Both the position numbers and the translations under genes were made by a program. A stretch of 13,409 bases of DNA from contig WOZB01000023.1 in assembly GCA_011620445.1 (NCBI GenBank), positions 1-13,409 on the forward strand. Reading direction: 5' to 3'. Source of the DNA: Anaerolineaceae bacterium (GTDB taxonomy: Bacteria > Chloroflexota > Anaerolineae > Anaerolineales > Anaerolineaceae). How positions within the stretch are numbered: the stretch's first letter is position 1; each line of letters opens with the position of its first letter. The notes under the pieces were generated by a model. The model worked only from the letters and a program-made list of their open reading frames with translations. It was not told where the DNA came from and made no database searches. Shown in pieces: positions 3,579 to 13,409 of this stretch.

Positions 3579-5816
3579 ATGCCCCTAGACCCCGACCCAA
3601 GCGTGTGGGATTACATCAAGACCCTGCCTGAGAGGCGCAAGCTCCAGAAGCTAAAAGCGCTCGAGTCCGCTCAAGCTAATGCTGAGGCTTCCCCGGTCGA
3701 CCTGGAACTAAAAGAACCCGCTGGAAAGACACAGGCCGAGCCACCCATTAATGAAGCTCAGGCAGAAGCACATGACAAAAATATTTTGCCAGTCAACCTG
3801 TTAAAGTTGGGTGCAAACTGGCAAACATGGGCTTTTCTGGCTGGTATGCTGGTCTACTTGCTTACCCGCTTTATAAAAATCGACCAGTTCCCGATCTATT
3901 TCTTCTGTGACGAGGCCATCCAGACCATGTCTGCTTATGACCTGATCCGCAACGGCTTCAGGGATTCGGCTGGCAATTTTCTACCGGCTTATTTCCAGAA
4001 TGGCGGGCAATACAACCTGGGGCTTTCGGTCTATTGGCAGCTGGTTCCGGCACTCCTGGAACGTTCTGTAGCCATCACCCGCGGTTTTGCCGCACTGGTC
4101 ACCATTGCCTTCCCCATCAGCCTGGCATTCGCGCTGAAAGACATTTTCAAGTCAAAGCTTTGGTGGCTGGCTCCGCTGGTGGTTTCCGCAATTCCATCCT
4201 GGTTTCTGCACTCGCGCACAGCTTTTGAAACCTGCCTGGGTGCCTCCATGTTCGCTCTTTTCCTCTATTTCTATCTCAAATACAGACTGCAGAACCGCAA
4301 ATTCCTGTACTTGTCCTTAATTTTTGGCGCGCTTGCTTTTTACGCTTACACGCCCATGCAAATGGTGATGTTGGTCAGCGGCTTACTTCTGCTGGTCATT
4401 GATTTCCGCTACCATTGGCAGGATAAGGCCACTCTATTGAAAGGTGTACTATTGCTGGGGCTCCTGGCTGCTCCGGACCTTTGGTTTCGTCAAACGCACC
4501 AGGAAGCCATCAAACAGCACCTCAACTTGCTACATTCCTACCTACTGGAACCAAGCCTCAGCCTTGGGCAAAAATTCCTACACTTCATTGAGCGCTATCT
4601 ACGCGGGTTCGACCCCAGTTACTGGTTCCTCTACAACCAGCAGGATCTCACCCGCCACCTGATGCTTGGCTGGGGCCATATGCCCAGCCTCTTCTTCCCC
4701 TTCGTCGCCCTGGGGGTTTGGCAAGCCGTAAAGTACTGGAATAAGCCAGAAAATCGTGTCATCTTGGTTGCGTTTTTCGCCGCGCCCAGCGGAGCCGCCC
4801 TGGTGGAACCCAGTATTACCCGCCTGCTGATGATGATTGTGCCCTTTGCCTACCTCACCTGCCTCGGTTTAGCCTGGGTGATGGAATTTCTGCAAGCTAA
4901 ACTCCAGATCCAAAAACCAGTTTTATTGACTGCGGCGGCTTTGCTGGGTCTTTCAAGCGGATGGATGACCTTTGATGCCCTCCGTAACGGCCCCACCTGG
5001 TATCCGGATTACACACTTTACGGCATGCAGTGGGGCGGAAAGCAGGTTTTTGGCGAGATCAGGGATTATCTTGCTGTTGACCCCCAAGCCAAGATTATCA
5101 TCACCCCCTCATGGGCAAATAACACCGATGTCATTGGCCGCTTCTTCCTGGGCGATCCACTGCCTGTCCAGTTCAGCTCCATCAATTCCTTCCTTTCCAA
5201 CCTGCTGCCGATCGACGAGCAAACCCTTTTTGTGCTCACACCGGAAGAGGTGGATAACCTGCAAAAGAGCGGTAAATTTAAACCGCCGGTCATCCTGAAA
5301 ATTCTGGACTGGCCTGATGGCCGGCCTGGCTTTTACTTTCTTAAGCTCGATTACGTGGATAACGCCGCAGCTATTTTTGAGCAGGAAGCGATCGAGCTGC
5401 GCAAACCGATGACGGATATCGTGTCGCTCCTCGGGCAGCAAGTGCCGGTGGAATTCTCGCGCATCGACATGGCAGAGATAAGTTCTGCCTTCGATGGTGA
5501 CGAACGCTCTCTCACCCGCACTCTACAGGCTAACCCCTTTGTAATCAAGCTGGATTTTCCTGTGCCCGTAAAGATCAGCGAAGTCATTACCACGGTTGGT
5601 TCCCCGGCTACTCAAATCTCCGTGTCTATCACCAGACCTGATGGCAGTCAGGTGGAATACCAAGCCGCGGTGGAGCAGCTTTCCCAAAGTATCCGCCAGG
5701 TTCCAGTTGCATTTGGCAAGCCAGAAGAGGTCAGCACGCTTTCTATCAACATTTTGAGTATTGACGAACAGGAGCCCACCCACGTTCACGTGTGGGAAAT
5801 CAGTCTTAAGCAATAA
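3579..5816 (+). CDS. Multi-pass membrane glycosyltransferase, GT39/ArnT/PMT-like (GT-C fold)
   Basis: This 745-residue protein has three parts. Residues 1-75 are a charged, Ala/Glu/Lys-rich cytoplasmic-looking leader. Residues about 82-470 hold roughly ten hydrophobic segments. Residues about 480-745 are a long soluble, largely beta-predicted tail. After the first membrane segment comes FFCDEA with Asp111-Glu112, the position of the acidic pair in the first external loop that binds the lipid-phosphate sugar donor in GT-C enzymes of the GT39 type. The pattern ALLERSVAITRGFAALV also fits that fold. It probably transfers a sugar from polyprenyl phosphate to an extracytoplasmic acceptor (protein, lipid or polymer), but donor and acceptor cannot be read. 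The tail might be a carbohydrate-binding sandwich; no motif proves it. The nearest alternative is a related GT-C such as a dolichyl-phosphate-mannose mannosyltransferase. It runs divergently from gatCAB and is probably unrelated to the downstream operon. Confidence 0.75.
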   Translation: MPLDPDPSVWDYIKTLPERRKLQKLKALESAQANAEASPVDLELKEPAGKTQAEPPINEAQAEAHDKNILPVNLLKLGANWQTWAFLAGMLVYLLTRFIKIDQFPIYFFCDEAIQTMSAYDLIRNGFRDSAGNFLPAYFQNGGQYNLGLSVYWQLVPALLERSVAITRGFAALVTIAFPISLAFALKDIFKSKLWWLAPLVVSAIPSWFLHSRTAFETCLGASMFALFLYFYLKYRLQNRKFLYLSLIFGALAFYAYTPMQMVMLVSGLLLLVIDFRYHWQDKATLLKGVLLLGLLAAPDLWFRQTHQEAIKQHLNLLHSYLLEPSLSLGQKFLHFIERYLRGFDPSYWFLYNQQDLTRHLMLGWGHMPSLFFPFVALGVWQAVKYWNKPENRVILVAFFAAPSGAALVEPSITRLLMMIVPFAYLTCLGLAWVMEFLQAKLQIQKPVLLTAAALLGLSSGWMTFDALRNGPTWYPDYTLYGMQWGGKQVFGEIRDYLAVDPQAKIIITPSWANNTDVIGRFFLGDPLPVQFSSINSFLSNLLPIDEQTLFVLTPEEVDNLQKSGKFKPPVILKILDWPDGRPGFYFLKLDYVDNAAAIFEQEAIELRKPMTDIVSLLGQQVPVEFSRIDMAEISSAFDGDERSLTRTLQANPFVIKLDFPVPVKISEVITTVGSPATQISVSITRPDGSQVEYQAAVEQLSQSIRQVPVAFGKPEEVSTLSINILSIDEQEPTHVHVWEISLKQ

Positions 5817-5991: not shown

Positions 5992-6885
5992 ATGGATGAA
6001 TCTCAGCTGAATATCGGAAACGCCCTGGCGAGGTTACGCGGTTTTCTGCCATCCCTTTCCCCAGCTGAAAAAAAAGTAGGTGAATATTCCCTCGAAAAGC
6101 CAGACCAGGTTATTAAAATGACCCTGGATGAGATTGCAGCGCAGGTGGGGGTAAGCAATGCCACTGCCCTCCGTTTTTGCTACTCAATGGGTTATGAAAG
6201 CTGGCTGGCGTTCAAGTTTGCATTGGTTCAAAGCCTGCCCAACTCTCCCCGATTGGACGGCAACAACCTCAACAAAAAAGACAAAAATGGCGTTATTGCC
6301 CGCAAAGTGCTGCTAAGGTCCATGCAAGCGATCGATGATACCCTGTCAATCATCGAAGATGATCAGGTAGACCAAGCCATAATGCTTATCCGCAAAGCGC
6401 GCAGGATTCTCATTGTCAGTGCCGGTACATCCGCGCCAATTGCCCAGGAATTACACAACCGCTTCCTGCGCTTGGGCCTTGATTGCCATATGCAGACAGA
6501 CCCTTACCTTCAGGAAGTGCAGGTTGCACTCTTGGGTCCAAAAGACCTCTTGATTGTCATTTCCCAAACAGGAAATTCAAACGAGTCCAAACAAACCGCC
6601 GCTGAAGCCCAGGCGCAGCAAATACCGGTCCTATGCATCACCGGTAATACTTTTTCGCCCATCGCTCAATATGCCGATGTTGTACTGCTGGCAGTGACCC
6701 AGGAATCTACAACCGAGACCCTTTCTTCGAGGATTGCACTTTATGCCTTGGTGCATGCCCTCTATGTTTGCCTGGCGATGCGTTCCATGGATAAATCGAA
6801 GACCAGGGATAAAAATTCAAAAGTAGTCAAAATTAGAGCGGTCAATCAGTTAAAGGCAAGCGAAAAATCACTTCCGGAGGATTAA
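5992..6885 (+). CDS. RpiR/MurR-family transcriptional regulator (HTH + SIS)
   Basis: At 297 residues this matches the family's usual length. An N-terminal helix-turn-helix domain covers about residues 10-80, with the recognition region at 44-71 (TLDEIAAQVGVSNATALRF). A SIS sugar-phosphate-binding domain covers about 125-250, with the GTS loop at 145-147, the SQTGNSNE phosphate-binding stretch at 191-198 and SPIAQYADV at 222-230. Members bind a phosphorylated sugar and repress or activate the adjoining catabolic genes. The start is preceded only by a weak GAGAG Shine-Dalgarno. The stop overlaps the ATPase start by one base (TAATG). As first gene of a run encoding a nucleoside phosphorylase and a sugar-1-phosphate isomerase, its effector is plausibly a pentose phosphate from that route. 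The basic C-terminus (about 262-290) is unexplained. Confidence 0.93.
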   Translation: MDESQLNIGNALARLRGFLPSLSPAEKKVGEYSLEKPDQVIKMTLDEIAAQVGVSNATALRFCYSMGYESWLAFKFALVQSLPNSPRLDGNNLNKKDKNGVIARKVLLRSMQAIDDTLSIIEDDQVDQAIMLIRKARRILIVSAGTSAPIAQELHNRFLRLGLDCHMQTDPYLQEVQVALLGPKDLLIVISQTGNSNESKQTAAEAQAQQIPVLCITGNTFSPIAQYADVVLLAVTQESTTETLSSRIALYALVHALYVCLAMRSMDKSKTRDKNSKVVKIRAVNQLKASEKSLPED

Positions 6886-8585
6886 TGCCAGAACCCGTCA
6901 TTACAATCAAAGACTTACGTTTCAATTATCGTGGGGTAAAAAAACCCGCCCTCGACGGCATCAACCTGGATGTCAACAAAGGCGAGTTTCTGGTAATTAT
7001 GGGGCCCAGCGAAGCCGGCAAGAGCACACTGGCCTCAACCATCAATAGTCTCATTCCCAACTTCTTTAATGGCAAATTAAAAGGCGAGATCAACGTGATG
7101 GGCCGCGATACCCGCACCCAGAGCGTCGCCCAAATGTCCGAAATCGTGGGCATGGTTTTCCAGGATTTTGAAGCCGAGCTTTTCTCCACTAACGTGGAGC
7201 TTGAAGTGGCTTTCGGACCGGAAAACTTCGCTGAGGAATGGGATGAAATCAAGCGGCGCATCGATGAGAACCTGAATTACGTTGGTCTGGATGCCTTCCG
7301 CAGAAGGCCGCCTTCCACACTCTCGGGCGGTCAAAAACAAAAGCTGGCCATCGCCTCGGTATTGGCCCTCAAGCCTAAAATCCTGGTAATGGACGAGCCC
7401 ACCACCGATTTGGACCCAATCAGCAAGATGGGCGTCTTTGAAATCACCCACAGACTCTGCAAACGCGACGATCTGACCCTCATGATCATCGAACACGAAA
7501 CCGAAGAAGCCCTATTTGCCGATCGGGTAGCGTTCATCAAGGAAGGTAAAATCCTCAAAATCGGCCCGACCCGCGAAGTGCTAACCGATGTGGACACCAT
7601 GGAGAGCCTGGGGGTCATGCCTCTGGGCATTCCTAAATTCTTCAAACGCATGGGTGCCAGCGAACTGCCCTTGACCCCCGATGAAGGCGTGCGCGCCTTC
7701 CAATCCAGCGGCTGGAAAGTAAACCCGGATGCTTTTGAGAAAAAAGTGGCCGAAGAAAAGGCTGCCCTGGCCGCGCTTTCTGAACCACTCATCCAATGCA
7801 AAAATCTTGAGTATTCCTACAACAACACTGTTAAAGCGCTTAACGGTGTGAGCATGGACATCTTCAAAGGCGACATGGTAGCGATTGTCGGTCAAAATGG
7901 CAGTGGAAAGACCACCCTGGCCAAACATTTCAACGGTCTCTTCATGCCCAAATCCGGAGAAGTATCCGTAAACGGCATCCCAACAAAAGACCAGGGTGTT
8001 TTTAAATTAGGGCAGAAGGTGGGTTATGTGTTCCAGAACCCGGACCACCAAATTTTCTCAGAGACGGTATTTGAGGAAGTAGCCTTTAGCCCGCGCCTGC
8101 GCAAACTTTCAGAGGAGGAAGTCAAGGTCACCGTCACAGACGCACTTAAAGCCGTAGGCTTGGCCGGCTGTGAAGAGCTGGACCCCTTCTCACTCACCAA
8201 GAGCGGCCGCCAGCGCGTAGCAGTTGCCTCCATTTTAGCTGCCAAACCCGAAATCCTGATTCTGGATGAACCCACTACCGGCCTGGATTACGCGGAACAG
8301 CGCAGCATGATGAACATGGTTCGCCAGCTGAATGAGAATGGCAGCACCATCATCTTCATCACCCATCATATGTGGGTCGTGGCTGAATACGCCAAACGCG
8401 TTTTCGTCATGAAGGACGGGCAACTCTTCCTGCAGGGCACTACCCGCGAAGTATTCGCTCACGCAGATGAGCTGCAGACCGCTTCGCTGCGGCCGCCGCA
8501 TTTTGTTGAATTTAGCAATAAACTGGGGAACACCTTCCTCTATCCTGAAGAGATGCTTGAATGCATGGAAGGCAAGGAAAACTAA
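6885..8585 (+). CDS. ECF transporter ATPase, two fused nucleotide-binding domains (EcfA-EcfA')
   Basis: This 566-residue protein carries two ATPase domains in one chain and so replaces the separate EcfA and EcfA' subunits that power an ECF-type vitamin/nucleoside importer. Domain 1 (about 5-245) has Walker A GPSEAGKST (40-48), Q-loop Gln93, signature LSGGQ (146-150), Walker B with Asp170-Glu171 and H-loop His204. Domain 2 (about 302-525) has Walker A GQNGSGKTT (336-344), Gln384, Walker B with Asp461-Glu462 and H-loop His494 or His495. Its signature reads LTKSG (437-441) instead of LSGGQ. Both catalytic glutamates are present. GGAGG precedes the ATG by four bases. The stop overlaps the next start by one base (TAATG), as in the rpiR junction. 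The partners EcfT and an S-component lie downstream. Start and family are secure; the transported substrate is not shown by this gene. Confidence 0.93.
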   Translation: MPEPVITIKDLRFNYRGVKKPALDGINLDVNKGEFLVIMGPSEAGKSTLASTINSLIPNFFNGKLKGEINVMGRDTRTQSVAQMSEIVGMVFQDFEAELFSTNVELEVAFGPENFAEEWDEIKRRIDENLNYVGLDAFRRRPPSTLSGGQKQKLAIASVLALKPKILVMDEPTTDLDPISKMGVFEITHRLCKRDDLTLMIIEHETEEALFADRVAFIKEGKILKIGPTREVLTDVDTMESLGVMPLGIPKFFKRMGASELPLTPDEGVRAFQSSGWKVNPDAFEKKVAEEKAALAALSEPLIQCKNLEYSYNNTVKALNGVSMDIFKGDMVAIVGQNGSGKTTLAKHFNGLFMPKSGEVSVNGIPTKDQGVFKLGQKVGYVFQNPDHQIFSETVFEEVAFSPRLRKLSEEEVKVTVTDALKAVGLAGCEELDPFSLTKSGRQRVAVASILAAKPEILILDEPTTGLDYAEQRSMMNMVRQLNENGSTIIFITHHMWVVAEYAKRVFVMKDGQLFLQGTTREVFAHADELQTASLRPPHFVEFSNKLGNTFLYPEEMLECMEGKEN

Positions 8586-9367
8586 TGGATGCCGAACTTT
8601 ATCTCGATAACAATTCATTTATTCATCGCCTTGACCCCAGGACGAAGATCATTATTTTTCTGCTGAGTTTCGTGGCCATTTTACTTTTCCAAAACCCGCT
8701 TTGGATGCTTCCAGTTGCCGTCCTGATCTTCCTGGAATTGTATGTTTCGAAGGCATTTAAGAACATCTACCGCATTCGTGTGCTGCTGATTATCCTCAGC
8801 CTCTTCAGCCTGATCCTCTGGAATTTCTTCGCCAGGGGGCAGACGCACTGGTTCCTCTTCGTTTATAAAGAGTCTTTCTTCTACGCCGTTGCCAGGACGC
8901 TCCTGATGGTCCTGATGATTTCGGCCGGCGTTGTGCTGATCAGTACCACTCGCAATGAGGAACTTGTGCTGGGTTTGATTAAGCTTGGCGTGCCTTATCG
9001 GGTTGGTTTTGCCATCTCTACTGCCCTGCGTCTGGTACCCACCATCGCTTCCAGCACAGTCACCATCAGCCAGGCCCAGCGCAGCCGCGGTTTGGACCTG
9101 GATTCTGGTAACCTGATTGAACGCATCCGCAAGTTCCTGCCATTATTAGTTCCTGTCTTTATCTCCACCATTCGTAGCACCAATATTTTTGCGATGGCGC
9201 TTGAATCAAAAGGCTTTGGCGCGAGAGAACATCGCACCAACTACCTGCGCCTGAAGATGCAAAAATCCGACTATATAGTGTTAGGCTTTGTCATTGCCTT
9301 CGTGATTGCCTCGGTAACCCTCTCCATCATGGGATATGGCAAACTGACCGGTCTCAAGAATTTTTAG
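8585..9367 (+). CDS. ecfT: ECF transporter transmembrane energy-coupling subunit (EcfT)
   Basis: EcfT links the ATPases to the substrate-binding S-component in the membrane. The 260-residue product shows the family opening HRLDPRTK (14-21) and about five membrane segments (23-50, 65-82, 98-122, 137-155 and 231-250). A long cytoplasmic coupling region (160-225) carries the two short motifs that insert into the ATPases. These normally read Ala-Arg-Gly; here they are SRG (167-169, QRSRGLDLD) and SKG (208-210, ALESKGFGARE). I chose ATG 8585 over the in-frame ATG at 8561: AAGGA lies 6 bases before 8585, and the one-base TAATG overlap with the ATPase stop copies the upstream junction. The alternative adds eight residues (MHGRQGKL) that overlap the ATPase gene. 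Confidence 0.92.
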   Translation: MDAELYLDNNSFIHRLDPRTKIIIFLLSFVAILLFQNPLWMLPVAVLIFLELYVSKAFKNIYRIRVLLIILSLFSLILWNFFARGQTHWFLFVYKESFFYAVARTLLMVLMISAGVVLISTTRNEELVLGLIKLGVPYRVGFAISTALRLVPTIASSTVTISQAQRSRGLDLDSGNLIERIRKFLPLLVPVFISTIRSTNIFAMALESKGFGAREHRTNYLRLKMQKSDYIVLGFVIAFVIASVTLSIMGYGKLTGLKNF

Positions 9368-9374
9368 GAGCTGC

Positions 9375-10427
9375 ATGGACGCGAAAGAAATCAACCAAAT
9401 GCTGCCCTGGCTGCTGCGCCGCGAAAATGTGGCCGCCTACCTGGACGGCAAAGTTATCATCGGCGACCGTCGAAAATACCCCTTCGAAAAGGTCTTTGTC
9501 AGCTGCAATTCGGTTGAAGAAATTGCCAAAGCGATTGAAGAGATGGTCACCCAGGGCGGCGGCCCCTCCATCGCGGCCATGTACGGCCTGGTTCTGGCGG
9601 CCAGGCATTGCGCTGGTAAATCGGAGCGGACCCAGAAAGAAACGCTTGAAGCTGCCCGGCTCAGGCTTACCAAAACCCGCCCAACCAACACCTCGTTGGC
9701 CAGATTGCTCGAAAAAACCATGGTTCTGGCTGAAGAGTTTATCGACCAGGGCGCAAACCTTGAGAGCGAATTGCTTAATTGGATCGAAAATTACCGCGAT
9801 GAGAACTACGAACGCTACGGTAAGGTGGGTGAGTATGGAGCCAGCCTGATTGACGATGGCGACGGCGTGCTGACCATGTGCTTTGCTGAAACTTCATTCC
9901 TGCTGAGCCTGGCTCTGGCTAAACGCGCCGGAAAGCGTATTCACGTTTTCACCCCTGAAACCCGGCCGTACCTGCAAGGAGCACGCCTTACCGCGCCCAG
10001 CGTGCAGGAAATTGGCGTGCCGGTGCAAATCATCGGCGACAATATGCCAGCCTACGTGCTTTCCCAAGGCAAAATCCAAAAATACTTTACCGCTGCCGAC
10101 CTGGTGACCCTGGATGGCCATGTAGTCAACAAGATCGGCACCTTCCAAAACGCGATTGCCGCCCATTACCACGGGGTGCCTTATTTCGTTTACTCGGGTG
10201 GAGCCGATAATAAGAAACCCGACCGCGCTTCCATTGAAATTGAAGAACGCAATCCGGCTGAATTGAAAAACTGCCGCGGAATTCCCACTACCGATCAGTC
10301 CATCGATGCTTATTACCCGGCTTTTGACATCACTCCGCCCCATTTGGTCTCGGGTGTGGTCACACAATATGGTATCCTAAACCCGTATGACCTCAAACGT
10401 TACTTTGGAGAAAAGGGACTGGTATGA
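9375..10427 (+). CDS. MtnA/eIF2B-like sugar-1-phosphate isomerase (aldose-to-ketose), divergent
   Basis: The family converts 5-methylthioribose-1-phosphate (MtnA), 5-deoxyribose-1-phosphate or ribose-1,5-bisphosphate to the ketose phosphate. The 350 residues are a normal MtnA length. Conserved parts are RPT (102-104), TMC with Cys169 at the catalytic cysteine position, ETRPYLQGARLTA (196-207), DNMPAY (222-227), Asp242 at the catalytic aspartate, VNKIGT (251-256), IEERNP and YPAFDITP. Departures from typical MtnA are CFAE instead of CNAG, AADL instead of GADR, and QGGGPSIAAMYG (60-71) where RGAPAIG normally binds phosphate. It is likely active on a related phosphorylated pentose, but which one is open. 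AGGAG overlaps the ecfT stop, giving a 7-base gap, and the stop overlaps the phosphorylase start by 4 bases (ATGA). An aIF2B-type translation factor is less likely, given the context and the retained Cys/Asp. Confidence 0.8.
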   Translation: MDAKEINQMLPWLLRRENVAAYLDGKVIIGDRRKYPFEKVFVSCNSVEEIAKAIEEMVTQGGGPSIAAMYGLVLAARHCAGKSERTQKETLEAARLRLTKTRPTNTSLARLLEKTMVLAEEFIDQGANLESELLNWIENYRDENYERYGKVGEYGASLIDDGDGVLTMCFAETSFLLSLALAKRAGKRIHVFTPETRPYLQGARLTAPSVQEIGVPVQIIGDNMPAYVLSQGKIQKYFTAADLVTLDGHVVNKIGTFQNAIAAHYHGVPYFVYSGGADNKKPDRASIEIEERNPAELKNCRGIPTTDQSIDAYYPAFDITPPHLVSGVVTQYGILNPYDLKRYFGEKGLV

Positions 10428-11227
10428 GATCAGCAATTATTACTGGCACTGGCATTTATGAAATTGCAGGCTACAGTTTTCGGCCCGAAAGTATAGCAAC
10501 ACCTTACGGACCCGCCCAGGTTTTCCTGAGTGAAGATCCGCAGCTGGATCTGGTTTTTCTCGCCCGTCATGGGCTGCAGCATACTACCCCTCCCCACAAA
10601 ATCAACTACCGTGCCAACATCAAAGCCTTGCAAATGCTGGGTGTCAAGCAGGTTTTAGCGACCTACGCGGTTGGCTCCATCAATCCTGAAATTCCCCCCT
10701 TTAGTCTGGCATTGATTACTGATTTTTTGGACTTTACCAGCGGCCGGCCTCTTAGTTTTTTTGATGGCGGCGACAGCGGTCTGGCGCACACCAGCATGGA
10801 TCAGCCCTTATGCCCAAGTTTAGGGGCAAAAGTATTGGAATTGGCACCCGAGTTCAACCTCACCCTGCGCAAAGAATCGGTTTATGTAGCATCTAATGGG
10901 CCCCGATTTGAAACCCCGGCTGAGATCCGCGCCTACGGCAGGCTGGGCGGAGATGTGGTTGGCATGACCTGCGTGCCTGAAGTAGTGTTGGCTAAAGAAC
11001 TTGGCATTCATTTTGCGGCCGTAGCATTTTCAATTAATTGGGCTACAGGGATAGAGGAAACCATGACCATCGTTGAAGGAGACCGCGGCGACCTGAATAA
11101 CCGCCTGACGGACTTGTTCATTAAGACTTTAACAAGCGATATCCAATTCACCTGTCGTTGCAAAAGCGCGGCCATGATTTTTCACCCGCCTGTTGAGCGG
11201 GGAGAGACCGCCACGAAAGGAGGATAA
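10424..11227 (+). CDS. mtnP: MtnP/PNP-family nucleoside phosphorylase, probably inosine-type (methylthioinosine phosphorylase-like)
   Basis: Cleaves a purine nucleoside with phosphate to free base and (5-substituted) ribose-1-phosphate. Family motifs are the phosphate loop TGTG (7-10), FLARHG (45-50), PPHKINYRAN (56-65), SNGPRFETPAEI (157-168) and VGMTCVPEVVLAKE (179-192). The base-recognition residue is Asn205 (FSINWATG). Adenine-specific MTA phosphorylases have Asp pairs in this region, whereas 6-oxopurine enzymes (PNP, Pseudomonas methylthioinosine phosphorylase) have Asn. This points to hypoxanthine or guanine nucleosides and fits the deaminase gene downstream. The 267 residues are slightly long, with a C-terminal tail from about 240 (FTCRCKSAA...) that looks poorly conserved. 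ATGA overlap couples it to the isomerase. Confidence 0.88.
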   Translation: MRSAIITGTGIYEIAGYSFRPESIATPYGPAQVFLSEDPQLDLVFLARHGLQHTTPPHKINYRANIKALQMLGVKQVLATYAVGSINPEIPPFSLALITDFLDFTSGRPLSFFDGGDSGLAHTSMDQPLCPSLGAKVLELAPEFNLTLRKESVYVASNGPRFETPAEIRAYGRLGGDVVGMTCVPEVVLAKELGIHFAAVAFSINWATGIEETMTIVEGDRGDLNNRLTDLFIKTLTSDIQFTCRCKSAAMIFHPPVERGETATKGG

Positions 11228-11266
11228 GCGGGAAGAAGATTTCAATTTCTGGCCTGGTAATTTCTT

Positions 11267-11283
11267 TTGAAACTTATTTTCAA
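11267..11283 (+). repeat. Small inverted repeat upstream of the S-component gene
   Basis: TTGAAA (11267-11272) and TTTCAA (11278-11283) form a 6-bp inverted repeat with a 5-base centre in the 83-base gap before the S-component. It is AT-only apart from one G-C pair, so a stable hairpin is unlikely. It could be a weak operator or mere AT-rich symmetry. Confidence 0.25.
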
Positions 11284-11310
11284 CAATACTATTTATCAAG
11301 GAGTAATCAA

Positions 11311-12150
11311 ATGAAAGAAGTATTCAGCATGTGGAAGTACACCCGGATGATCATCCTGGTCGCGCTTTCTGCCGCCATTTATGCCGCCTTCCTGATCGTT
11401 TTCAAGGCTGGCATCCCGATCGTCCCTGGAATTACCGAAGTTCGCCCCGCTAACGTCTTCCCACCTGTCTTCAGCCTGCTCTTTGGGCCTGCTGGCGCCT
11501 GGGGCGCTGCCATTGGCAACTTCATTGGCGACCTCTTCGGCGGTACCCTTGGAATTGGTTCCATTTTTGGCTTCTTTGGTAACTTCTTCCTCGGTTTCAT
11601 CCCCTACAAACTGTTCGGTTCCGTCTTCGGTTTGGTTCCTGCGAACGATATGTCTCAGACCACCAATTCCGGCAAGAAACTGTTGGCCTTCGAAATCATC
11701 ACTCTGGTGGCTTCGGCGGCCTGCGCCATCATCATTGCCTGGTACCTCGACCTGACCAAGATTGTGCCCTTTGCCTTCCTCTCCATCACCATCACTCTGA
11801 ACAATTTTGCAGCCGGAGTGGTCCTAGGGCCCATCCTGCTCTCCCTGCTCTTCCCACGCGTAAAGCGCTGGGGCTTGATCTGGACTGACATCATGAAGAA
11901 AGAAGATGTTGCTCCTGGCTTCGGCAAGGGGCTCGGTGCCATCCTGATGATTGTCGGATCCCTGGGCGGTTTGATTGTCGGCGTTTTGGTGGCTACAGGT
12001 GTCTCCGGCCAGACCCTTTTGGGCTTTACTGGTGAACAGGGTCAGACAGCCGTTTGGTTGGCAGTCCTGCCCTTCCTGGCACTCATCATTATTGCCAGCT
12101 TGATGCTCTCCGGCCGCGAACAATTCGTTGAAGAAGTGGACGAAGATTAA
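11311..12150 (+). CDS. ECF transporter substrate-binding S-component, 279 residues, substrate unassigned
   Basis: The S-component binds the imported molecule in the membrane and docks on EcfT. The first segment (about 12-32) contains Ala18, Ala22 and Ala26, the AxxxAxxxA face that contacts EcfT. It is followed by EVRPANVFPPVFSLLFGPAGAW (43-64) and NFIGDLFGG (70-78), which resemble the ligand-pocket hairpin of S-components. Hydrophobic segments run about 12-32, 46-69, 80-105, 124-147, 152-182, 206-231 and 247-267, seven in all. Typical S-components have about 180-200 residues and six segments, so the C-terminal pair after the cytoplasmic loop at 183-205 looks extra. AAGGAG with a 7-base gap supports the ATG. 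It lacks the FRISE-type motif I associate with QueT, so I leave the ligand open; the neighbours suggest a nucleoside. Placement after the enzymes but in the same run as the A/T genes suggests a dedicated transporter. Confidence 0.82.
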   Translation: MKEVFSMWKYTRMIILVALSAAIYAAFLIVFKAGIPIVPGITEVRPANVFPPVFSLLFGPAGAWGAAIGNFIGDLFGGTLGIGSIFGFFGNFFLGFIPYKLFGSVFGLVPANDMSQTTNSGKKLLAFEIITLVASAACAIIIAWYLDLTKIVPFAFLSITITLNNFAAGVVLGPILLSLLFPRVKRWGLIWTDIMKKEDVAPGFGKGLGAILMIVGSLGGLIVGVLVATGVSGQTLLGFTGEQGQTAVWLAVLPFLALIIIASLMLSGREQFVEEVDED

Positions 12151-12175
12151 TTTCAGTCTGATTTATAATCTGAAG

Positions 12176-12205
12176 AGGTGAGGTCTAATCCTGATCTCAC
12201 CTTTT
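12176..12205 (+). terminator. Hairpin between the S-component and deaminase genes (terminator or processing site)
   Basis: AGGTGAGGT (12176-12184) pairs with ATCTCACCT (12194-12202) in a 9-bp stem with one G-U pair and a 9-base loop, followed by TTTTCCTT. The stem is moderate and the T run is interrupted, so it may be a weak terminator, an attenuator or an RNase-processing or stability element that lowers deaminase expression. AAGGAG for the next gene begins about 10 bases after it. Confidence 0.5.
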
Positions 12206-12222
12206 CCTTAAAAGGAGTCCGC

Positions 12223-13409
12223 ATGGAAGAACAGCTTGAGCGCCTTGATACCCTGATTACCGGTGCCACTCTTTTGACCATGGATTCACAACGCCGTTTG
12301 ATCGAAGACGGCGCATTGGGAATTCGCGGTGAAAAGATTGCCTGGGTGGGTGCCCGGGCAGAATTACCCGAGGTGGTTGAAGCCCGCGAAAGATTGGAGA
12401 TGCCCGGTAAGGTGCTGATGCCAGGCCTTATCAACACGCATGGCCACATCGCCATGACTCTCTTCCGCGGTTACGTGCACGACGTGGCGTTGGAGGCTTG
12501 GCTCGCAAAAATCTGGAAGGTGGAAGCCCAGACAGTCTCAGATGAAAACGTAGAAGCCGGTGTGAAACTGGCGCTGGTCGAGATGCTGCGTTCAGGAACT
12601 ACCGCTGCTGCTGACATGTACTTCCAATTCCCAACCGTCTGCCAGACGACCTCTGAAGCTGGTTTCCGCTTGTTCAACGGCCCCAGTTTTGCCATCATCC
12701 CAGGCTTCGAGGTAAAGAAAAACGTCTACTATGAAGCTGCACTCGAGATGCTGGACATAGTAAAAGGCTACCCGCTGGTGCACCCCTGTGTTCAGGCACA
12801 TGCCATCTACACTGCCAGCCTGGCCGTGCTGGAGGAAATTGAACGTATCAAGGCAGAAAGAGACCTCATATTCGTGACCCACGCGGCCGAATCCTTAGGT
12901 GAAATGCAGCAAGTTCGGGAGCTTTACCAAAAGACGCCCATCGAGGTACTCGATACGGTCGGGCTCTTGGATCGCAATACCCTTCTGGCGCATGCAGTAC
13001 ATTTGAATGACGCCGAATTGGATCTGCTGGCTGAGCGCGGCACCTCGGTTGCCCATTGTCCGCAATCCAATCTCAAACTTGCCTCGGGCATTGCCAGGGT
13101 GGCCGAAATGCTCAAACGCGGCGTCAATGTGTCTTTAGGTACCGATGGCACCGCCAGCAATAACGACCTGGACCTCTTCCACGAAGCCCAAACAGCCGCC
13201 CTGGTGCAGAAGGCCATAAGCAAAGACCCAACCGTCCTGCCGGCTGAAGAGGTGGTGGCTATGCTCACCATCAATGGCGCGCGTTCCTTTGGGCTCGAAG
13301 ATAAGCTCGGATCGCTGGAAGTGGGCAAACTCGCTGATCTGACCGTGCTGGATTTTGAGTCAGCAAATCTGACGCCTTGCTATGACATTTACGCTCACCT
13401 GGTGTATTC
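12223..13409 (+). CDS. mtaD: MTA/SAH (5'-modified adenosine) deaminase-like amidohydrolase, 3' truncated by the window
   Basis: Deaminates an adenosine-type nucleoside, releasing ammonia. 395 codons are visible, and comparison with family length suggests about 40-60 more beyond the window. The ATG has AAGGAG 5-6 bases upstream. Metal ligands are His73 and His75 (NTHGH), His220 and Asp308 (GTDGTASNND); Glu223 (THAAE) and His257 (LAHAVH) are the catalytic pair in the TM0936-type deaminases of this family. ASNNDLDLF and the Glu of IWKVE (Glu101, the ribose-contact position) are typical of MtaD rather than of cytosine or chlorohydrolase relatives. Unusual points are Gly between the two metal histidines (usually Thr), HDVA for DDLP after FRG, and QAHAIYT where PHxPYT is usual. 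The true substrate could therefore be methylthioadenosine, S-adenosylhomocysteine, 5'-deoxyadenosine or adenosine. It is the last visible gene, and any further enzyme would be outside the window. Confidence 0.85.
   Translation, partial: MEEQLERLDTLITGATLLTMDSQRRLIEDGALGIRGEKIAWVGARAELPEVVEARERLEMPGKVLMPGLINTHGHIAMTLFRGYVHDVALEAWLAKIWKVEAQTVSDENVEAGVKLALVEMLRSGTTAAADMYFQFPTVCQTTSEAGFRLFNGPSFAIIPGFEVKKNVYYEAALEMLDIVKGYPLVHPCVQAHAIYTASLAVLEEIERIKAERDLIFVTHAAESLGEMQQVRELYQKTPIEVLDTVGLLDRNTLLAHAVHLNDAELDLLAERGTSVAHCPQSNLKLASGIARVAEMLKRGVNVSLGTDGTASNNDLDLFHEAQTAALVQKAISKDPTVLPAEEVVAMLTINGARSFGLEDKLGSLEVGKLADLTVLDFESANLTPCYDIYAHLVY

Follow-up and report, generated by a model that had tools for sequence, protein, structure and literature searches.

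The window, a 13,409-nucleotide stretch of DNA comprising positions 1-13409 of contig C87 (GenBank WOZB01000023.1) of an Anaerolineaceae genome (G000; 1.92 Mb in 299 contigs, 91% complete), carries a cassette of seven colinear genes, all on the plus strand from position 5992 to the window end, which appears to join an energy-coupling factor (ECF) importer to enzymes of nucleoside breakdown. Searches against Pfam and NCBIfam agreed with the following gene assignments.

5992..6885, plus strand: MurR/RpiR-type regulator with HTH_6 and SIS domains (PF01418, 51.5 bits; PF01380, 77.2 bits; both over cut-off)
6885..8585, plus strand: fused ECF ATPase EcfA with two ATP-binding cassette (ABC) halves (PF00005 in two stretches; TIGR04520, 470.3 bits, cut-off 315)
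8561..9367, alternative start ATG 8585, plus strand: EcfT, CbiQ family (PF02361, 103.5 bits, cut-off 25)
9375..10427, plus strand: MtnA-like isomerase of a divergent clade (PF01008; Cys169, Asp222, Gln60 and a CFAET loop)
10424..11227, plus strand: nucleoside phosphorylase of the methylthioinosine phosphorylase (MTIP) or methylthioadenosine phosphorylase (MTAP) type, MtnP-like (PF01048; Asn205 at the position of human MTAP Asp220)
11311..12150, plus strand: ECF S-component, QueT-related (PF06177, 64.1 bits, cut-off 33.7)
12178..13407, ATG 12223 possible, plus strand: amidohydrolase like MtaD and 5'-deoxyadenosine deaminase, cut by the contig end

The regulator and EcfA genes overlap by 1 base, EcfA and EcfT by 25 bases (1 base if EcfT starts at ATG 8585), and the MtnA-like and MtnP-like genes by 4 bases. 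Gaps of 7 and 83 bases separate EcfT from the MtnA-like gene and the MtnP-like gene from the S-component, and the gap before the MtaD-like gene, truncated where the contig ends at 13409, is 27 or 72 bases by the start chosen. These coordinates, with the family searches, bear out the first-pass annotation, made from the letters alone, in its claim of seven real, colinear genes with short overlaps and gaps. We consider the cassette to be probably an operon by which an adenine-type nucleoside is taken up and broken down.

Conservation was assessed in 42 loci fetched with a relative of the S-component, gene order being taken from the best phmmer match with a limit of 150 bits per match; some fetched stretches were short. 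EcfA-EcfT-MtnA-MtnP-S lay on one strand in 25 loci, 21 of them with MtaD; the check put forward in the first-pass annotation, for co-occurrence of the S-component with MtnA-like and MtnP-like genes in related genomes, had a positive outcome. The complete order EcfA-EcfT-MtnA-MtnP-S-MtaD was present in 20 loci, and in one further (L013) with the S gene split by a stop. MtaD alone was missing in four, two of these because the contig ends. Two short contigs had MtnA-MtnP-S(-MtaD), two loci had EcfA-EcfT-MtnP-S(-MtaD), MtnA was shifted downstream in two Thermanaerothrix loci (L028, from Thermanaerothrix daxensis strain GNS-1, and L029), and a Clostridia locus (L035) read EcfA-EcfT-S-MtaD-MtnP, with MtnA ahead of EcfA but under the 150-bit limit. 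One locus (L043) gave only a weak, marginal S match. Counted singly, MtnA was present in 30 loci, MtnP in 32, MtaD in 26 and the regulator in 12. Judged from these sequences, the layout is not a product of chance. An S match above 400 bits was found in 16 of the 147 genomes of the family, spread over nine genera, and PF06177 in 24 of the 298 genomes of the class, part of them not of the cassette type. The S gene is broken by an in-frame stop in L013 and in G404 (L078, L141; one TGA in G404), L141 being the ECF cassette of that genome.

Relatives also carry the same enzymes behind a different importer. Among 16 stretches, mostly picked from PF01008 hits, five (L126, L130, L134, L137, L138) had the order ABC permeases-PNP-MtaD-MtnA, in which the purine nucleoside phosphorylase (PNP) passed the inosine/guanosine-specific model TIGR01700 in every case (the L137 and L138 enzymes scanned as L120 and L118). 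Four of the five also showed an ABC ATPase and a binding protein, the contig of L134 ending before them, and this binding protein was of PF02608 (BMP/PnrA-like) in all four (that of L138 scanned as L122). MtaD-MtnA-aldolase was found in five further stretches (L127, L128, L129, L135, L139), four of which had a PNP downstream on the opposite strand; the three scanned all passed TIGR01700. MtnA stood beside an aldolase in L136 and with none of the queried partners in L131 and L132, and L133 gave a weak match only. Such retention of the enzymes under a different importer is the strongest indication of all that the substrate would be a nucleoside.

Two ABC ATPase domains, an EcfT and an S-component with the S fold occur here in one set, as expected of an ECF transporter. 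The structure model of the S-component shows the ECF S fold and two extra C-terminal helices. Read with general knowledge of ABC and ECF motifs, EcfA has two Walker A and two Walker B motifs and LSGG in one half; the first half has LSGGQ and the second a degenerate signature, SLTKSGRQR. Of 36 EcfA rows, 35 have a signature of the LTK or MTK type in their second half, the row from L040 showing none. The two ATP sites of EcfA may be unequal, to judge from these motifs.

The isomerase is not a canonical MtnA. It scored under the cut-off of TIGR00512, the equivalog for MtnA, 5-methylthioribose-1-phosphate isomerase (215.7 vs 279 bits), and of TIGR00511 for ribose-1,5-bisphosphate (R15P) isomerase (141.8 vs 314.1 bits), and passed the broader subfamily NF004326 (288.3 vs 271 bits). 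The catalytic Cys and Asp (Cys169 and Asp222 here) are kept in all 31 isomerase rows. In 30 of them Gln (Gln60 here) replaces the Arg of the RGAP/RGAG motif, and the loop after the Cys is CFAET, as against CHSKA, with Ser and Lys at the 5-phosphate, in R15P isomerase; the L035 enzyme is the one row with canonical motifs. In the Pyrococcus horikoshii R15P isomerase, from which the residue roles are taken, that Arg binds the 1-phosphate (PMC5789824). A tree of 23 rows set the cassette enzymes apart from canonical MtnA (99/98), and on these sequences they form a separate clade, whose altered motifs are common to the enzymes adjoining inosine/guanosine-type PNPs. All but one of the 16 S-positive genomes of the family have a lower-scoring PF01008 hit that either adjoins the S gene or is at most some 4 kb away, and 13 of these 15 encode a second PF01008 protein of at least 208 bits elsewhere, its motifs inspected for G346 and G424; G000 and G404 have the cassette protein only. 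Tandem pairs of very divergent PF01008 proteins that lack the catalytic Cys occur at L113 (G346) and L116 (G355), and in G387 (L119/L140) a RuBisCO-like protein (PF00016; best NF007095, 210.6 bits, cut-off 409) is encoded directly before an MtnA of the divergent clade.

The phosphorylase matched MTAP (208.4 bits) and MTIP (NF006599, 193.6 bits, cut-off 223) best, under both cut-offs, and PNP models at no more than 113.3 bits. Asn occupies the position of human MTAP Asp220 in 33 of 33 phosphorylase rows, as in the Pseudomonas aeruginosa MTIP, which is consistent with a 6-oxopurine nucleoside, such as the deaminase would form, and with deamination first. The deaminase, cut as it is by the contig end, scored best with NF006549 (387.3 bits, cut-off 540) and reached 299.6 bits with the 5'-deoxyadenosine deaminase model (cut-off 522); its motif stretches read HGH, HAAE, HAVHL and GTD.

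In 14 of the 42 loci, no more than 3.2 kb separates the gene for a class II aldolase from a gene of the cassette; 12 of these enzymes are FucA-like and two RhaD-like, and two FucA-like and one RhaD-like aldolase, the G000 enzyme included, were scanned by name. PF00596 was found in every one of the 16 S-positive genomes but G342, which is 66% complete, has no MtnA between EcfT and MtnP (L088) and encodes DeoB. The G000 genome holds one such aldolase, on contig C193, which matched L-fuculose-phosphate aldolase best (253.5 bits, cut-off 264) and the haloarchaeal ribulose-1-phosphate (Ru1P) aldolase NF053831 next (172.3 bits, cut-off 300).

From the gene order and its conservation, the folds and families, the catalytic and base-site residues and the presence of the aldolase we infer the substrate, the direction of the route and its reactions. 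The S-component would bind the nucleoside outside the cell, and EcfT with the fused EcfA would power import. MtaD would deaminate the nucleoside to its 6-oxo, inosine-type form, which the MTIP-type enzyme would split into hypoxanthine and ribose-1-phosphate (R1P) or its 5-deoxy or 5-methylthio analogue. The divergent MtnA-like enzyme would then convert the sugar-1-phosphate to a ketose-1-phosphate, and the class II aldolase, unlinked in G000 and near the cassette in many relatives, would cleave this to dihydroxyacetone phosphate (DHAP) and a C2 aldehyde. A sugar phosphate is the probable ligand of the RpiR-type regulator. The chain of import, deamination, phosphorolysis and isomerisation proposed at first is supported in outline by comparison (gene order, S fold, a 6-oxopurine phosphorylase beside a deaminase, the ABC parallels); cleavage by an aldolase had been overlooked, as had the fact that the isomerase is divergent.

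The chemistry has precedents. In the E. coli DHAP shunt (PMC12632272, PMC10986504), the genes mtnK-mtnA-ald2, with a linked putative permease gene and MtnR, encode an isomerase and a class II aldolase that turn the sugar of 5'-deoxynucleosides into DHAP and an aldehyde, as proposed here. In E. coli the sugar-1-phosphate comes from the action of a nucleosidase and a kinase, whereas the cassette has a deaminase and a phosphorylase; its importer is ECF, its regulator RpiR-type rather than DeoR-type, and its isomerase of the divergent clade. In the methylthioinosine (MTI) pathway of P. aeruginosa, comprising a 5'-methylthioadenosine (MTA) deaminase and MTIP (3ozb), deamination likewise precedes phosphorolysis of the 6-oxo nucleoside (PMC6302742); the cassette phosphorylase has the same base-site Asn, although it falls under the MTIP cut-off. 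The literature found on that pathway described no ECF importer or such an isomerase cassette with it. The haloarchaeal non-carboxylating pentose bisphosphate pathway also turns nucleoside ribose into DHAP and glycolaldehyde through a FucA-like Ru1P aldolase (PMC9700705). It uses an R1P kinase, an R15P isomerase and a ribulose-1,5-bisphosphate phosphatase, whereas the cassette isomerase would act without kinase or phosphatase. Titles and abstract openings, with subscription literature mostly outside their scope, yielded no account of an ECF importer for nucleosides combined with such enzymes. Both the divergent isomerase and the dedicated ECF importer look new, and the whole combines known parts in a new way, with one enzyme activity that is possibly new. 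ECF transporters are described in abstracts as importers of micronutrients and vitamins, and one in a catabolic nucleoside operon would, if true, widen that role. It would also suggest a substrate for a QueT-related clade of several phyla and define a branch of MtnA, and the cassette could explain nucleoside use by Anaerolineae that lack DeoB, perhaps, in their ecology, from dead cells.

The group at the nucleoside 5'-position divides the evidence. An ordinary 5'-OH, as in adenosine or inosine, comes close to an even chance in our judgement; a 5'-deoxy or methylthio group is a substantial possibility of lower rank, and any other group has a small chance. Features that point to R1P are the sister clade linked to PNPs, the lack of DeoB in 10 of the 16 S-positive genomes, the presence of a second MtnA, and the polar nature of the CFAET loop. 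The 5'-deoxy and methylthio forms are favoured by the MTIP-type phosphorylase, by an apparently missing His and by methionine-gamma-lyase-like neighbours. At the position of a PNP His that we take to contact the nucleoside 5'-OH, where the alignment is gappy, none of the seven Anaerolineae cassette rows has His, whereas L034, L035 and L101 have one nearby. In the same gappy region the PNPs themselves are mixed, with His in L127, L128, L135 and L137 and none in L126, L130, L134 and L138. A methionine-gamma-lyase-like gene adjoins a cassette gene in five of the 42 loci (L002, L006, L018, L034, L035; Chloroflexota and Bacillota), with TIGR01328 as best match, under cut-off in all four of the five scanned. 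A system restricted to nucleosides of the 5'-deoxy or 5'-methylthio kind, such as MTA and 5'-deoxyadenosine, that is, an import-fed DHAP shunt via inosine-type intermediates, would accommodate these features and the higher scores of MTAP and MTIP over PNP models, and has the E. coli mtnK-mtnA-ald2 genes as a precedent (PMC10986504, PMC12632272). We nevertheless regard it as somewhat unlikely: the second PF01008 protein in 13 of 15 genomes would make plain MTA salvage redundant there, and the cassette isomerase shares its clade and motifs with enzymes beside inosine/guanosine-type PNPs. In its boldest form, which we hold only tentatively, a general nucleoside route would make the divergent clade an R1P isomerase, giving Anaerolineae a direct path from purine nucleosides through R1P and Ru1P to DHAP and glycolaldehyde without phosphopentomutase, kinase or bisphosphate, served by interchangeable ABC/BMP and ECF importers, with the ECF transporter carrying a nucleoside carbon source and not a vitamin.

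Several observations weigh against an operon for adenine-type nucleosides. The S-component occurs without MtnA, MtnP or MtaD in nine of the 42 loci (L031, L033, L036-L042), within the stretch fetched, so it is not tied to the proposed pathway everywhere. Among the listed genomes of its genus (g1) only G000 has a strong S match. With the 1-phosphate Arg lost, the isomerase might act on something other than a sugar-1-phosphate. In G000 the aldolase gene is not linked to the cassette, and beside the ABC cassettes it follows in L134 and L137 and is absent at L130 and L138, L126 being at a contig edge. DeoB scored over cut-off in six of the 16 S-positive and three of the five ABC-cassette genomes, many of them incomplete, so its absence is not a rule. 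Finally, the S-component passes the Pfam QueT model and G000 has a TGT.

These last two points would suit salvage of queuosine or 7-deazaguanine, in which a QueT-type S-component would import queuosine (Q) or its base, the phosphorylase would free the base and the isomerase would clear R1P; transport of preQ1, q and Q has been reported for one Clostridioides difficile QrtT (PMC11130926). We find this improbable. Six core QueT rows, themselves without experimental characterisation, split from the 38 others, the cassette S-component included, with 100/100 support on long branches, and where five core rows share Q[FV]R[VI][SA]E the cassette protein has TEVRPAN. Together with the two extra helices and the nucleoside-enzyme neighbours, this distinguishes it from core QueT despite the shared fold and Pfam match. 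The first-pass annotation had said that phylogenetic clustering with a known vitamin transporter of different substrate would count against its proposal; the match to Pfam QueT, whose name refers to the transport of queuosine precursors, bears on this, though in the tree the S-component stands apart from the core QueT rows. No queuosine gene was found among the family-scanned flanking open reading frames, which cover part of the flanks, no riboswitch reached gathering score in the window or in the loci of 20 relatives, and the deaminase would lack an obvious role. A futalosine-type route, with deamination and phosphorolysis of aminodeoxyfutalosine for menaquinone biosynthesis, is extremely improbable: the MTI step resembles futalosine chemistry (PMC6302742) and the deaminase matches PRK08418, but at 118 bits, far under the cut-off of 320 and under the 387.3 bits of NF006549, and a biosynthetic role is at odds with the presence of an importer and a sugar-1-phosphate isomerase.

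Upstream of the cassette lie gatCAB on the minus strand and then the gene for a 745-residue membrane protein (window 3579-5816), which matched nothing in Pfam or NCBIfam at E 0.001 and is read as membrane glycosyltransferase-like; a relative of it adjoins gatC in a same-genus genome. A misbinned contig was considered, since the listed same-genus genomes apart from G000 have no strong S match, and was rejected. The GatA encoded in the window shares 69% identity with its best relatives from the same genus and no more than 64% with those of 15 cassette-bearing genomes of other genera, and in G310, a genome of the same genus, gatBAC is likewise next to the glycosyltransferase-like gene (L072, L100); the contig was therefore treated as belonging to G000 and the cassette as patchily held. 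Two parallel ECF clusters were also seen. L101 (G368) has an MtnP-like gene, EcfT, two EcfA, a distant QueT-related S-component and MtnA, and L102 (G340) has LacI, a sugar isomerase, two EcfA, EcfT, a PF12822 S-component, MtaD and a short-chain dehydrogenase/reductase.

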